From Archangium primigenium (lineage in GTDB: Bacteria; Myxococcota; Myxococcia; Myxococcales; Myxococcaceae), in NCBI RefSeq assembly GCF_016904885.1, contig NZ_JADWYI010000001.1, forward strand, positions 2,666,001-2,730,000: a stretch of DNA of 64,000 nt, written 5' to 3'. Both the position numbers and the translations under genes were made by a program. This document shows, in pieces, positions 37,664 to 41,267 of this stretch. Under the pieces are notes generated by a model. It searched no databases. It was given only the letters and a program-made list of their open reading frames with translations, and was not told where the DNA came from. Within the stretch, counting starts at the first letter, position 1. Every line of letters begins with the position of its first letter.

Positions 37664-38248
37664 ATGGGTTCCCCGTCGACCGCTCCGTCCCGCCGGCCAG
37701 CCACCTACCAGGACCTCGTCGCCTTGCCCGAGCACCAGGTAGGCGAACTGATCGCCGGGGAGCTGTATGCCTCGCCCCGGCCCGCGTCCCGCCATGCCAA
37801 GGCCGCCTCGATCCTGGGCATGGACCTGGGCAACCCCTTCCAGCGGGGGCGGGGGGGCCCGGGCGGGTGGTGGCTCATCTTCGAGCCCGAGCTGCACTTC
37901 GGCGAGGACGTGCTCGTCCCCGACCTGGCGGGCTGGCGTCAGGAGCGCATGCCGACGATTCCCGACGTGAGTTACTTCGAGCTGGCGCCGGATTGGATCT
38001 GCGAGGTGCTGTCACCTTCCACGGCGAAGCTCGACGTGGTGCTCAAGCTGCCTCGCTACGGGCGCGCGGGCGTGGAGCACGCCTGGATCGTGGACCCCAT
38101 CCACCGGATGCTCCAGGTGTTCCACCAGGAGCAGGGCCGCTGGGTGCTCGCCGCGTCCTTCTCGGGCGATGACCGCGTGCGAGCCCAGCCCTTCGACGCC
38201 GTCGAGCTGGAGCTGGGCTCGCTGTGGATGGACACGCGCACGCCGTGA
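37664..38248 (+). CDS. Uma2 family (DUF820) putative endonuclease
   Basis: 194 residues. The Uma2 restriction-endonuclease-like fold is recognisable: YQDLVALPEHQVGELIAGELY at the N-terminus, FEPELHFGEDVLVPDLAGWR with the conserved Asp of the PD-(D/E)XK core, and CEVLSPSTAKLDVVLKLPRYGRAGVEHAWIVDP. These proteins are common in multicopy in cyanobacteria and myxobacteria; their role is unknown. ATG 37664 is preferred over GTG 37646 because TAGACT ends 7 nt upstream of it. Convergent with the ThrRS gene with 1 nt between stops. Confidence 0.85.
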   Translation: MGSPSTAPSRRPATYQDLVALPEHQVGELIAGELYASPRPASRHAKAASILGMDLGNPFQRGRGGPGGWWLIFEPELHFGEDVLVPDLAGWRQERMPTIPDVSYFELAPDWICEVLSPSTAKLDVVLKLPRYGRAGVEHAWIVDPIHRMLQVFHQEQGRWVLAASFSGDDRVRAQPFDAVELELGSLWMDTRTP

Positions 38249-38249
38249 G

Positions 38250-39455
38250 TCACACGGCCGACGCGGGCTGGCACTCGGCCACGAGCCGGGCCACCGCGTC
38301 GTCCTGGGACAGCGCCGCCTGCGTCCCGTCCCGGCGGCGCAGGCTCACGGCGTTCTTTTCCACCTCGCGCCGGCCCACCACCACGAGCCACGGCACGCCG
38401 TCCTGGTGCGCGTCGACGATCTTCCGCGACAGCGACTCGGCGCGCGCGTCCACGGCCACCCGGCAGTCCGCCGCGCGCAGCCTCGCGGCGAAGCGCTCGG
38501 CGTCGACCACCTGCCCCTCGCCCAGCGGCGCCACCACCACCTGCCGGGGCGCCAGCCACGCGGGCAGCGCGCCCTCGTGGTGCTCCAGCAGGATGCCGAT
38601 GAACCGCTCCAAGCTGCCGAGCATCGCCCGGTGCAGCATCATCGGTCGGCGCTTCTGTCCCGACGCGTCCACGTAGCTCAGGTCGAAGCGCTCGGGCAGC
38701 ACCAGGTCGAGCTGGATCGTCCCGCACTGCCAGTCGCGGCCCAGGCGATCCTTCAGGACGAACTCCAGCTTCGGGCCGTAGAAGGCGCCCTCGCCCGGCT
38801 GCGGGCGGCAGTCGAGCCCCGCCCGCGCCGCCGCCTCGGACAGCAGCGCCTCGGCCCGATCCCACACCGCGTCGCTCCCGGCGCGCTGGGCCGGACGGCT
38901 GGAGAAGGCCACCTGGATGTGCTCGAAGCCGAAGGCCGCGTAGAAGGCGTGCAGCGAGCGGCAGAAGGCGAACACCTCGTCGCTCAATTGCTCCTCGGCG
39001 CAGAAGATGTGCCCGTCGTCCTGCGTGAACTGGCGCAGGCGGAACAGGCCGTGCAGCGAGCCGCTCGGCTCACTGCGGTGCACGAGCCCGAACTCGCCCA
39101 GCCGCAGGGGCAGGTCGCGGTAGCTCGGGCCCATGCGCTGCACGAGCTGGATGTGGCCCGGGCAATTCACCGGCTTGAGCGCGTGGTGGCGCTCGCCCTC
39201 CTCGGCGAGGGAGAACATGTTCTGGCGGAAGTTGTCCCAGTGGCCGCTCTTCTCCCAGAGGGGCTGGGCGAGCAGTTGGGGCGTCCTCACCTCGAGGTAG
39301 CCCTCGTGCCGCATCCGCCGCCGGACGCGCTCCTCGATGAGCTGGTAGAGCTGGTAGCCGCGCGGGTGCCAGAAGACCATGCCGGGCGCCTCCTCCTGCA
39401 GGTGGAAGAGGTCGAGGCGCTGGCCGAGGGAACGGTGATCATGAACGTCGAGCAT
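38250..39455 (-). CDS. Threonyl-tRNA synthetase paralogue without TGS and editing domains
   Basis: 401 residues against about 640 for housekeeping ThrRS. It begins at the catalytic core (MVFWHPRGYQLYQLIEE) and ends with the anticodon-binding domain (VVVAPLGEGQ to the C-terminus); the N-terminal TGS domain and the second domain that hydrolyses mischarged Ser-tRNA are absent. All three zinc ligands that recognise threonine are kept: Cys98 (PVNCPGH), His149 (DDGHIF) and His275 (LHRAMLG). Class II motif 2 (VHRSEP...GLFRLRQF) is intact. So it should charge tRNA-Thr but not proofread in cis. GGAG at 39462-39465 is 6 nt before the ATG and lies inside a hairpin; a Thr-rich leader precedes it. A complete thrS is presumably elsewhere in the genome. 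Confidence 0.9.
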   Translation of the reverse strand: MLDVHDHRSLGQRLDLFHLQEEAPGMVFWHPRGYQLYQLIEERVRRRMRHEGYLEVRTPQLLAQPLWEKSGHWDNFRQNMFSLAEEGERHHALKPVNCPGHIQLVQRMGPSYRDLPLRLGEFGLVHRSEPSGSLHGLFRLRQFTQDDGHIFCAEEQLSDEVFAFCRSLHAFYAAFGFEHIQVAFSSRPAQRAGSDAVWDRAEALLSEAAARAGLDCRPQPGEGAFYGPKLEFVLKDRLGRDWQCGTIQLDLVLPERFDLSYVDASGQKRRPMMLHRAMLGSLERFIGILLEHHEGALPAWLAPRQVVVAPLGEGQVVDAERFAARLRAADCRVAVDARAESLSRKIVDAHQDGVPWLVVVGRREVEKNAVSLRRRDGTQAALSQDDAVARLVAECQPASAV

Positions 39456-39457
39456 GG

Positions 39458-39553
39458 GTGACTCCGAATCGGGAAGAAGAAGGCTTTCCGGTCGGAGCAC
39501 TGAGCGCTTGCACGGACGCCCCGGCCGGTGAAGGCGGGGCGAGGAAACCGTGC
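39458..39553 (-). promoter_or_regulatory. Attenuator-like RNA: two hairpins, second hides the ThrRS ribosome binding site
   Basis: On the minus strand, hairpin 1 spans 39553-39510: outer stem GCACGG/CCGTGC (39553-39548 with 39515-39510) and inner stem CGCCCCGCC/GGCCGGGGCG with one bulge. It starts 4 nt after the leader-peptide stop. Hairpin 2 pairs GTG-CTCCGA (39500-39492) with TCGGAG-T-CAC (39467-39458), nine pairs with one bulged T; it contains the Shine-Dalgarno GGAG (39465-39462). No T-run follows hairpin 1, so translation control is more likely than intrinsic termination. GTGCG within the leader (39575-39571) can alternatively pair with CGCAC (39554-39550), which would break hairpin 1. 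Confidence 0.65.
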
Positions 39554-39557
39554 GGCG

Positions 39558-39641
39558 TCAGCTCACTGCACGCACACGCGTCCCACGCCCGCCAGGAGTG
39601 GCGGTACGGGTCGCGGTGGTGGTGGAGAGGACGAGGCTCAC
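39558..39641 (-). CDS. Threonine-rich leader peptide upstream of ThrRS paralogue
   Basis: A 27-codon ORF (GTG start, TGA stop). Residues 7-15 read TTTATRTAT, and residue 21 is also Thr: 7 Thr in 27 residues, with three Thr codons in a row. The stop is 102 nt upstream of the ThrRS start codon and is directly followed by strong hairpins. This is the layout of ribosome-mediated attenuation, in which shortage of charged tRNA-Thr stalls the ribosome at the Thr codons. There is no Shine-Dalgarno, but a -10-like CACTTT ends 7 nt before the GTG, so the leader may be translated from a leaderless transcript. Confidence 0.65.
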   Translation of the reverse strand: MSLVLSTTTATRTATPGGRGTRVRAVS

Positions 39642-39648
39642 GCGAACC

Positions 39649-39677
39649 AAAGTGCGCGCGGCGCGCGGCGTTGTCAA
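39649..39677 (-). promoter_or_regulatory. Candidate promoter for the ThrRS leader
   Basis: On the minus strand a perfect TTGACA -35 (39677-39672), 17-nt G+C-rich spacer, and CACTTT (39654-39649) as a weak -10. Start of transcription would fall at about 39641-39642, i.e. on the GTG of the leader peptide. It lies just after the stop of the ankyrin gene, so the ThrRS gene can be transcribed independently of it. Confidence 0.5.
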
Positions 39678-39687
39678 GCCGGGGGGA

Positions 39688-40227
39688 CTACTGGCGCGTG
39701 GCCAGCAGGGAGGCGAGCCGCGCCGAGGTGCGCTCCGCGCCCATGGCCTGCGCGTAGTCGATCGCCCGGCGGCGGGCGGCATCCTGTCGCTGGGAATCGG
39801 CGCCGCGCGCGAGCAGCTCCTCGAGCACCTCGAGCTTGTCGAACATGGCCGCGAACATGAGGGCCGTCTTGCCGTCGGGGCCCGCGCCGTCGACGCGCGC
39901 GCCGCGCGAGAGCAGCAGTCGGGCCATGGACAGGTCTCCCTTGAAGGCGGCGCCGGACAGCGGCGTCTGGCCCCGGTCGTTGGTGCGCTCGGGATCCGCG
40001 CCGTACTCGAGCAGCACGCCCGTGGCCGCGAGGTGCCCGTGGTAGCTGGCGAGCATCAGCAGGGTGTCCCCGCGCTCGTTGCTCAGGTTGGCCGGCAGGC
40101 CCACGCCGAGCAACCACTCGAGCTGGGCCGCCTCCCCGGCGCGGGCGTGCTGGAAGGCGCGGCGCGCCAGCGCCATCACGTCCTCGTCCGTCGTCTTCAC
40201 CTGGGCGTCGCGGGTCTCGGTCTTCAT
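39688..40227 (-). CDS. Ankyrin-repeat protein
   Basis: 179 residues, no signal peptide. About four ankyrin repeats: NERGDTLLMLASYHGHLAATGVLLEYGADP, NDRGQTPLSGAAFKGDLSMARLLLSRGARV, PDGKTALMFAAMFDKLEVLEELLARGADS (each written here only as far as it identifies the repeat), and a degenerate last one. Ankyrin proteins mediate protein contacts; bacterial ones next to oxyR or catalase genes have been tied to peroxide resistance (AnkB of Pseudomonas). Divergent from oxyR across a shared regulatory region, which supports such a role. Confidence 0.88.
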   Translation of the reverse strand: MKTETRDAQVKTTDEDVMALARRAFQHARAGEAAQLEWLLGVGLPANLSNERGDTLLMLASYHGHLAATGVLLEYGADPERTNDRGQTPLSGAAFKGDLSMARLLLSRGARVDGAGPDGKTALMFAAMFDKLEVLEELLARGADSQRQDAARRRAIDYAQAMGAERTSARLASLLATRQ

Positions 40228-40265
40228 GAGCTTGGGGTCCTCGTGGGTACGCCGTGAATGCCCTC

Positions 40266-40295
40266 AAGGTATGCAAAGGGCCTTGAACGGGCCAA
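40266..40295 (-). promoter_or_regulatory. Candidate promoter for the ankyrin gene
   Basis: On the minus strand TTGGCC (40295-40290), 18-nt spacer, TACCTT (40271-40266). The expected transcription start is about 40259, giving a ~32-nt leader with GAGG before the ATG. The OxyR-type palindrome is centred about 65 bp upstream of this start, the standard position of a LysR-family activator site. Confidence 0.45.
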
Positions 40296-40313
40296 GACAT
40301 GGTTCTGATGGAC

Positions 40314-40334
40314 TTGATAGGCCGGGCCTATCAA
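40314..40334. promoter_or_regulatory. OxyR-type operator: 21-bp perfect palindrome
   Basis: Ten-bp arms TTGATAGGCC and GGCCTATCAA around a central G (40324). It contains ATAG-N7-CTAT, the half-site pattern known for OxyR. It overlaps the expected -10 of oxyR (TATCAA at 40329-40334, 9 nt before the oxyR ATG) and sits upstream of the ankyrin promoter, so one bound dimer pair could repress oxyR and activate the ankyrin gene. Only one clean half-site pair is visible, not the tandem pair of E. coli. Confidence 0.7.
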
Positions 40335-40343
40335 TGATGGGGC

Positions 40344-41267
40344 ATGCCCTCCGTCAATGACATCTCCCTGCGGCAGCTCGAATATGTCGTCGCGGTGGCG
40401 GACACGCTCGGCTTTCGGAAGGCCGCCGAGCTCTGTCATGTCTCCCAGCCCGCATTGAGCGCGCAGATCCAACAACTGGAAGACGTCTTGGGGGTGCGGC
40501 TCTTCGAGCGGGACAAGCGCCGGGTGATGCTGACCGCGGCGGGCGAGGAGCTGGTGGCCCGGGCGCGGCGGGTGCTCACGGAGACAGGGGACATCCTCTC
40601 GGCGGCCTCGCGGCTGTCCGACCCGTTCTCCGGCGTGCTGCACCTGGGAGTGATTCCCACCGTGGCGCCCTACGTGCTGCCGGAGGTGGTGCCCGCGGTG
40701 ACGAAGAAGTACCCGCGGCTCAAGCTGCGGCTGCGCGAGGAGAAGACGGAGCTGCTCGTGCGCGGCCTGGAGGAGGGGCGGCTGGACGCGGCCCTGGTGG
40801 CGCTCGACGCGGAGCTGGGGGACGTGGAGCAGGCCGTCATCGCGGAGGACCCCTTCGTCGTGGCGGCGCCGCCCGGCCACCCCGTGGTGAAGAAGGAGCG
40901 CGTGCCGCTCAAGGACCTGGACGAGGAGAACGTGCTGCTCCTGGAGGACGGGCACTGCTTTCGCAGCCAGGCGCTCGCCCTGTGCCGGCGCGTGGGGGCG
41001 CACGAGGTGGACTTCCGCGCCACGAGCCTCACCACGCTCGCGCAGATGGTGATGTCGGGGGAGGGGAGCATCACCCTGTTGCCCGCGCTCGCGGTGCCGC
41101 TGGAGAACCGGCTCGGCCAGCTGGCGGTGCGGCCCCTCGCGCCCGCGCCGAGCCGCACGCTCGCCCTGGTGTGGCGGCCGGGCTACCCCCAGGGGGACGC
41201 GCTCCAGGCCCTCGCGGACACCCTGCGCGCCGCCTGGCCCAGGCCCCGCGAGTCCGCGAAGCGCTAG
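40344..41267 (+). CDS. oxyR: LysR-family hydrogen peroxide sensor OxyR
   Basis: 307 residues. N-terminal helix-turn-helix (QLEYVVAVADTLGFRKAAEL to VRLFERDKR) and a LysR effector domain. Both redox cysteines of OxyR are present: Cys205 and Cys214 in EDGHCFRSQALALC, with the same spacing as Cys199/Cys208 of E. coli. Peroxide forms a disulfide between them and changes DNA binding. Likely regulates the divergent ankyrin gene and itself. No catalase or alkyl hydroperoxide reductase gene lies in the window. The 3' end overlaps convergent gspC by 4 nt. Confidence 0.94.
   Translation: MPSVNDISLRQLEYVVAVADTLGFRKAAELCHVSQPALSAQIQQLEDVLGVRLFERDKRRVMLTAAGEELVARARRVLTETGDILSAASRLSDPFSGVLHLGVIPTVAPYVLPEVVPAVTKKYPRLKLRLREEKTELLVRGLEEGRLDAALVALDAELGDVEQAVIAEDPFVVAAPPGHPVVKKERVPLKDLDEENVLLLEDGHCFRSQALALCRRVGAHEVDFRATSLTTLAQMVMSGEGSITLLPALAVPLENRLGQLAVRPLAPAPSRTLALVWRPGYPQGDALQALADTLRAAWPRPRESAKR

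Follow-up and report, generated by a model that had tools for sequence, protein, structure and literature searches.

A threonine-rich leader, competing RNA helices and a threonine-poor second threonyl-tRNA synthetase in Archangium primigenium

Why should a run of threonine (Thr) codons stand before a gene for threonyl-tRNA synthetase (ThrRS) that is itself almost free of them? The question is raised by a compact unit in a 64,000-nucleotide stretch of the Archangium primigenium genome (contig NZ_JADWYI010000001.1, positions 2,666,001 to 2,730,000; hereafter the window). On the minus strand of 39680-38250, a promoter, a Thr-rich open reading frame (ORF), two hairpins and a ThrRS gene, here called thrS2, follow one another. 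The parts of this unit are conserved among relatives, as are two competing sets of RNA helices within it, and the encoded enzyme is depleted of Thr. The leader very probably senses Thr-tRNA and controls thrS2. The full explanation, a ribosome-mediated attenuator that acts on the Shine-Dalgarno (SD) sequence and induces a backup ThrRS under shortage of threonyl-tRNA, is in our judgement a likely one, held with less assurance because it includes the SD output, which folding backs only in part.

The threonine-rich leader reading frame

The original prediction, made from the letters of the window, placed the Thr-rich ORF, both hairpins, the SD, a TTGACA box and a weak -10 box where our recalculation also finds them, with the same counts. 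The leader ORF opens with GTG (39641) and reads VSLVLSTTTATRTATPGGRGTRVRAVS, with six of its 7 Thr within residues 7-15; no other ORF of 12-60 codons in the 64-kb window packs 6 Thr into 9 residues, and one second such Thr-dense ORF occurs within 263,567 bases of flanks from 68 loci, so that chance seldom yields an ORF of this type. Relatives were compared at 67 loci, which comprise 66 genomes of the family and a Myxococcus qinghaiensis copy (L038) with exactly the leader of L023, a match that points to Myxococcaceae as the family; two further loci, L203 (genome G138, from a different family within the order) and L040 (a metagenome-assembled genome, MAG, of the Polyangiaceae), stand outside this set. 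In all 67 the leader ORF spans 23-28 codons and encodes 6-10 Thr (median 8), of which six or more fall within nine residues; for this count, ORFs with at least 3 Thr were considered and, among nested starts, the one closest to 36 nucleotides (nt) after TTGAC was taken. Over nine codons of the run per locus, 489 of the 603 leader-frame codons encode Thr, their third base being C, G or T, and in the other frames no count exceeds 331 (Pro) or 282 (His). The leader Thr codons of the 67 loci are ACC (321), ACG (128) and ACT (73).

An in-frame Thr run with variable third bases in 67/67 loci is not accounted for by direct feedback, in which the ThrRS protein would bind the leader RNA of its gene, the RNA mimicking tRNA, and the Thr-rich ORF would be incidental. 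This is the mode of control of E. coli thrS, where ThrRS acts on a tRNA-mimic leader RNA. Autoregulation of the gene by E. coli ThrRS is also stated in print (PMC2965389; this and the other papers cited here are represented by excerpts). In the region 38000-41000, none of 15 Rfam families, including Thr_leader (RF00506), reaches its gathering score, the only match being sR30 at 14.9 bits against a cut-off of 38, and the lack of an Rfam match also argues against feedback by the protein, which we consider extremely improbable.

Upstream of the leader ORF, TTGAC(A/T/G) is found in all 67 loci. The start codon lies 7 nt beyond the -10 hexamer in 60/67 loci, including the window, and 6-10 nt beyond it in the others; a 17-nt spacer between the two boxes was assumed for all loci, so that the 7-nt distance is partly chosen. 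From this spacing, transcription is expected to begin at or beside the start codon, and the leader mRNA is therefore probably leaderless, as described for trpL of Sinorhizobium (PMC7298713) and for leaders of Streptomyces (PMC8079986). The original prediction missed this near-coincidence of start codon and expected transcription start, as it did the near absence of Thr from the synthetase. The leader of L203 reads VLLASATTRTTTTCFGGPLVV and follows TTGACA, 17 nt, CATCCT and, 6 nt on, GTG; that of L040 begins MALPAREVTTTTPTTTLRGG and has no TTGAC.

A synthetase depleted of threonine

The thrS2 protein matches TIGR00418 at 455.7 bits, above the curated cut-off, and a domain search finds neither a TGS domain nor the tRNA_SAD editing domain in it. 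The ThrRS motifs NCPGH, DDGHIF and MLHRA and the zinc ligands are present in the alignment, inspected by eye. A full-length ThrRS, 47% identical to the thrS2 protein, lies elsewhere in the genome (G000:C1:5913849-5914976), and its frame bears tRNA_SAD (G000:C1:5915043-5915189); the description of thrS2 as a second threonyl-tRNA synthetase in the original prediction is thus right, because this main copy exists.

The most distinctive property of the short enzyme is what it lacks. Thr counts in the aligned core are 1-5 (median 3) for 67 short ThrRS, 14-20 (median 18) for 22 main ThrRS, an arbitrary subset of the family's main copies, and 5-19 (median 14) for 78 other bacterial ThrRS, taken from the best 80 matches and thus those most similar to the query. 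At non-conserved columns, a column being counted as Thr-conserved from 70%, the averages per protein are 0.19 in the short, 15.27 in the main (n=22) and 9.62 in the other ThrRS (n=78). Outside columns 58, 144 and 246, 55/67 short ThrRS have no Thr at all, 11 have one and 1 has two, and the 22 main copies have 12-18. The minimum length of 330 residues excluded no ThrRS locus. Ser content is unaltered (4.64 vs 4.55%), and among the window's 37 frames of at least 200 codons that are rich in G+C at third positions, that of thrS2 is the poorest in Thr. The Thr codons that remain in the 67 genes are ACG (164), ACC (42) and ACT (2). Outside the family, the L040 copy has one Thr in the aligned core, and L203 is less extreme with 6 Thr in 357.

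Composition drift, with the leader as a short gene of no regulatory role, would be a simpler source of this pattern. Ile, Asn, Lys and Tyr are also lowered in the short ThrRS, and two of the 78 other ThrRS have just 3 non-conserved Thr, both of which favor drift. The ratio of short to other ThrRS is 0.020 for Thr, however, and next come Ile at 0.19, Asn at 0.20, Lys at 0.23 and Tyr at 0.26; Thr codons are not AT-rich, outside the three columns named the main copies retain their Thr and most short copies have none, and the leader helices show some compensatory change. Drift therefore has next to no probability in our estimate. The depletion would be expected of a protein made when Thr-tRNA is short, and, read from sequence, it is the strongest independent support for induction by shortage: non-conserved sites hold 2% as much Thr as in other ThrRS, which would provide evidence at the protein level for synthesis under shortage. 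Because it contains almost no Thr codons, thrS2 could be completed while Thr-tRNA is scarce. We incline to the view that this is a 'starvation-proof' emergency ThrRS, with a control region full of Thr codons and a coding sequence purged of every dispensable Thr. If so, the shortage that induces thrS2 would not block its own synthesis, and sensor codons gathered in the leader and expelled from the enzyme would amount to a design principle.

Thr depletion is not explained if the short ThrRS is a drug-resistance copy of the borrelidin or obafluorin type with an inducible leader. Obafluorin producers do have a second ThrRS, ObaO (PMC10619133, PMC11252418), an extra paralogue as thrS2 is, and induction by low charging would fit. 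By these excerpts ObaO differs in being a resistance paralogue encoded within a biosynthetic cluster; it carries Ser for Gly463 and has ~637 residues by construct numbering. The residues altered in ObaO (E. coli Gly463 and Leu489) are unchanged in the window protein, the one sequence aligned by eye for this comparison, and an ObaO-type resistance copy was rejected because the ObaO-type changes are absent from it. A resistance role of any such type is quite improbable. Separately, the ThrRS of Cupriavidus (L059, L076, L090, L094) are also fairly Thr-poor, with 5-7 Thr in the aligned core.

Two mutually exclusive helix sets and the predicted switch

The leader can be divided into six segments: the Thr codons (1), the end of the leader ORF (2), the two arms of the first hairpin (3 and 4) and the two arms of the second (5 and 6). 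The first, G+C-rich hairpin (39553-39510) opens 4 nt past the leader stop, and the GGAG of thrS2 lies inside the second, 6 nt ahead of the ATG. The stretch 39660-39440 folds 3.15 standard deviations below its dinucleotide shuffles, none of 200 being equally low. The helices were evaluated in an alignment of 65 distinct leader RNAs from the 67 loci, two duplicates being omitted. The two stems named in the original prediction, which made their conservation and that of the Thr run a condition of its validity, are 3:4 and 5:6, here the OFF set; the run recurs in all 67 loci, and these stems are paired in 94.5% of alignment cells, compared with 91.8 +/- 0.3% in shuffles and 16-46% in slid alignments. 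The core of 3:4 is the best preserved, with 99.6% of cells paired, and the SD lies inside a conserved hairpin (columns 179-186 with 219-224, 90.7% paired), in which pair 180:223 is open in 28/65. Cells altered on both sides number 29 in the OFF helices, where shuffles give 7.8 +/- 2.1. At 110:153 the pair is A-U in 54/65 and G-C in 10/65, and at 186:219 it is U-A in 40/65 and A-U in 18/65, counts that refer to sequences and not to independent events.

The second set emerges unprompted. Applied to the same alignment, RNAalifold returns 2:3 (GGCGGG:CCCGCC) and 4:5 (CCGGCCGGGGC:GCTCCGTCCGG), here the ON set, which is incompatible with 3:4 and 5:6 and overlaps the leader ORF. The ON helices are paired in 98.8% of cells (slid, 35-61%), GGCGGG:CCCGCC being maintained in 99.0% and 4:5 in about 99%, and 2:3 also includes GTGCG:CGCAC, which is paired in 56-64 of the 65 RNAs. 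Two features support the ON helices beyond their conservation. Firstly, the nucleotides of segment 2 are preserved while the reading frame across them varies, with frame 0 (Gly-Gly) in 45/67 loci and another frame (mostly Ala-Gly) in 22/67. Secondly, C replaces U at column 180 in 28/65 RNAs, which loses a pair with the SD and turns a G-U of 4:5 into G-C. The leader ORFs also fold more strongly than their synonymous resamplings in 1:2 (mean z -1.81; 31/57 distinct ORFs below 0.05).

The mechanism that we infer, including where its transcription starts, that ribosomes stall, when the helices fold, which way expression moves and what triggers it physiologically, would run as follows. A Thr-rich ORF, probably leaderless, would serve as the sensor of Thr-tRNA supply. 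With ample Thr-tRNA, or with no ribosome, segment 1 would pair with 2 or the ribosome would get to the stop; 3:4 would then form, and 5:6 would bury the thrS2 SD. A ribosome waiting on the Thr codons would cover segment 1, and segment 2 would be free to take segment 3 upon its transcription. With segment 3 taken, segment 4 would pair with 5, the SD would be eased free and thrS2 would be translated. The short ThrRS would thereby restore charging when limitation, damage or inhibition affects the main ThrRS.

Staged folding agrees with the first steps of this order. With an assumed ribosome footprint of 13 nt from the first base of the A-site codon, used also in the equilibrium folds below, and a transcript ending at segment 3, the probability of 2:3 exceeds 0.5 in 10/65 RNAs without a ribosome, in 59, 63, 63, 64 and 64 of 65 with the ribosome on Thr codons 1-5 and in 55/65 on Thr 6. 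The predicted median cost of opening the SD is 7.0 kcal/mol in the OFF state and 3.9 with 4:5 enforced, and with this enforcement the OFF opening costs over 1 kcal more in 54/65.

Several results weigh against the attenuator and must be set beside these. Equilibrium folding of the full-length leader at the 67 loci gives a median probability of an unpaired SD of 0.013 without a ribosome, 0.005-0.006 when one sits on the stop codon and 0.005-0.012 when it is on Thr 1-4, with means of 0.10, 0.07-0.10 and 0.11-0.12 and a minority of loci mostly at ~0.2-0.4 (maximum 0.61). SD pairing at equilibrium is thus almost insensitive to stalling in the models, which speaks against a simple thermodynamic switch; since these folds show almost no SD release, a kinetic switch acting during transcription must be assumed. 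Removing segment 3 raises the median merely from 0.003 to 0.058, and 4:5 is preferred over 5:6 with segment 3 occupied in 46/65, not in all. If 4:5 is not enforced, opening the SD costs 5.6 kcal/mol rather than 3.9, and in 3/65 the cost is higher in the ON state. The ON state is less stable than the OFF state by a median of 3.8 kcal/mol (range -19.1 to 19.4). The leader of the window performs less well than most, with a probability of 2:3 of ~0.33 at Thr 1-3, 0.75 and 0.68 at Thr 4-5 and 0 at Thr 6, and L153 forms no 2:3 in staged folding. The double changes of the OFF helices are confined to 3 pairs, a number not above shuffles (123/500), no covariation occurs in the ON helices among the 65 RNAs, which show conservation only, and the excess of 2:3 over synonymous resamplings is modest (mean z -1.68; 21/57). 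Finally, a sigma-70 consensus scan calls no promoter at the leader, the -10 being too weak for its rule. The original prediction that stalling changes the pairing and exposes the SD is supported in outline, being matched by two conserved, mutually exclusive helix sets, but in full-length equilibrium folds masking the Thr codons hardly shifts SD pairing. The components of a classical attenuator are all present in the leader, arranged in the usual order and with concealment of the SD as output, but the predicted release of the SD is partial.

The same sensor could instead act by premature transcription termination at 3:4, alone or with Rho, with SD pairing secondary. The small SD release at equilibrium and the best-kept core in 3:4 both speak for this output, and the hairpin of Streptomyces lividans thrL also has no U-run in the published excerpt (PMC8079986). 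In the 40 nt after GGGGC, however, no 9-nt stretch has more than 5 T in any of the 67 loci, and 65/67 have at most 4 T, which makes intrinsic termination unlikely there because no U-run follows 3:4. A terminator scan of 39400-39760 gives two matches, both in the promoter region and none at 3:4, and termination leaves the conserved SD helix unexplained. At L203 (G138:C1070, gene start 1071, minus strand), unlike the 67 family loci, a T-rich stretch follows 3:4 and may form an intrinsic terminator, so that families may differ in what the switch controls. Termination as the principal output is unlikely in our estimate.

Distribution, known systems and the surrounding locus

How widely is this arrangement found, and from where might the enzyme come? 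Orthologues of thrS2 (63-83% identical) occur in 66/96 genomes of the family and in 67/145 of the order (E <= 1e-120), and the Polyangiaceae MAG of L040 has a copy that is 57% identical. The short ThrRS of 68 loci (the 67 and L203) and that of L040 form one clade with support 0.898, in a tree that omits about half of the other ThrRS and, owing to its rooting, does not demonstrate monophyly of the main ThrRS. The short ThrRS are nearer to other bacterial, mostly proteobacterial, ThrRS (50-55% identity, best 80 matches) than to the family's own main copies (45-49%). Some copies are interrupted: that of L012 (G009:C1:6435918-6437117) has an in-frame TAG and 348 residues instead of about 400, and those in G008, G035 and G037 are each flagged for a single TGA within the matched region.

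A covariance model of segments 3-6, built from 23 of the 65 RNAs and run on 193 genomes of the phylum, finds one site per genome in 65 genomes; 64 are family genomes in which the site abuts the thrS2 start, coordinates being compared by eye. With 18 candidates per genome and strict filters, it finds no second strong leader site over the 193 genomes. The correct place is matched at L203 (E 0.00013) and L040 (E 0.00095), and L152 (12.6 bits) and L153 (7.0 bits) score poorly. Because the search was strictly filtered and missed G004, G081 and G138, all of which have the leader, absence of the leader elsewhere is unproven. The remaining one of the 65 sites, at G117:C2:630957-631045 (minus strand), is a weak match (28.6 bits, E 0.003) in a genome of the order with no matched short ThrRS and may be due to chance.

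Attenuation by a leader peptide is long established. The thr operon attenuator combines a Thr-rich leader, competing hairpins and an intrinsic terminator that controls threonine biosynthesis. The thrS2 leader shares the Thr-rich peptide and the competing hairpins; it differs in that the thr operon attenuator acts on biosynthesis through an intrinsic terminator, and in having no Rfam match. In excerpt, Thr_leader RF00506 is listed upstream of thrA (PMC2659441). A close likeness is in Streptomyces lividans, where a leaderless thrL of 18 codons stands before thrS (PMC8079986): a Thr leader peptide, a leaderless transcript, a position directly before the ThrRS gene and a hairpin without U-run are common to both, whereas thrL has only two Thr and the excerpt describes no alternative SD helix. 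In bacilli, a His leader precedes hisZ and a duplicated hisS* (PMC2965389) and so also controls a duplicated synthetase through its cognate amino acid; this leader, of Firmicutes and for another amino acid, was found via intrinsic terminators, and the excerpt mentions no cognate depletion of the enzyme. Actinobacteria have leaders of trpS and leuS, the LEU element of leuA and an SD-hiding T-box of ileS (PMC1262725), which parallel thrS2 in placing leader peptides before synthetase genes and in tying an amino-acid signal to SD sequestration. Unlike in thrS2, however, the trpS and leuS leaders are there called classical, the Leu codons of leuA themselves pair with the SD and the T-box senses tRNA directly.

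For the depletion of the enzyme, the parallel is the cognate bias of amino-acid biosynthetic enzymes, which are low in their own product (PMC4209129). There too, a protein needed in starvation holds few of the missing amino acid, but the bias is demonstrated for biosynthetic enzymes, and 'tRNA synthetase' has no occurrence in the excerpt. Judged by composition, cognate bias would extend from these enzymes to a synthetase. No description of such a leader and enzyme codon arrangement for a tRNA synthetase was found in the open-licence literature searched, outside which most subscription papers lie. The original prediction knew of no described case of this exact arrangement in myxobacteria, a statement to be qualified, as a two-Thr leader before thrS (PMC8079986) and a His leader before a duplicated hisS (PMC2965389) are published. 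What is new relative to these leaders is the long Thr run, the six-segment layout with an SD output and a truncated second enzyme, without an editing domain and purged of Thr.

The locus would offer a testable case of a backup aminoacyl-tRNA synthetase tied to shortage of its own substrate. Myxobacteria are soil dwellers in which amino-acid starvation starts multicellular development. An enzyme that keeps Thr-tRNA charged without a proofreading domain of its own could matter in such starvation-triggered development. A general search rule also follows from the arrangement: duplicated synthetases poor in the cognate residue, behind leaders rich in the same residue.

Table 1. Features of the thrS2 unit, in window coordinates
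Feature	Position	Strand	Remarks
-35 box TTGACA	39672-39677	minus	TTGACA 36/67, TTGACT 26/67, TTGACG 5/67 loci
weak -10 box CACTTT	39649-39654	minus	17 nt from -35; hexamer starts CA in 66/67 loci
leader ORF	39558-39641	minus	27 codons, 7 Thr; probably leaderless; 6-10 Thr in 67/67 loci
segment 1, Thr codon run	39594-39623	minus	3' part able to pair with segment 2
segment 2, GGCGGG...GTGCG	39571-39593	minus	at leader ORF end; complementary to segment 3
segment 3, GCACGG...GCCCCGCC	39533-39553	minus	pairs with 2 (ON) or 4 (OFF)
segment 4, CCGGCCGGGGC...CCGTGC	39510-39528	minus	pairs with 3 (OFF) or 5 (ON)
segment 5, GCTCCGACCGG	39488-39498	minus	pairs with SD (OFF) or segment 4 (ON)
segment 6, TCGGAGT	39461-39467	minus	includes thrS2 SD GGAG (39465-39462)
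thrS2	38250-39455	minus	401-residue ThrRS: class II core and anticodon-binding domain; 4 Thr only

Directly upstream of the unit lies a gene for an ankyrin-repeat protein (39688-40227, minus strand), and on the same side a divergent gene for a LysR-type regulator (40344-41267, plus strand). The ankyrin gene adjoins thrS2 in at least 10/68 loci and a Uma2-like gene lies downstream of it in at least 2/68, both counts being lower bounds because the fetched flanks were short. The leader, by contrast, remains with thrS2.

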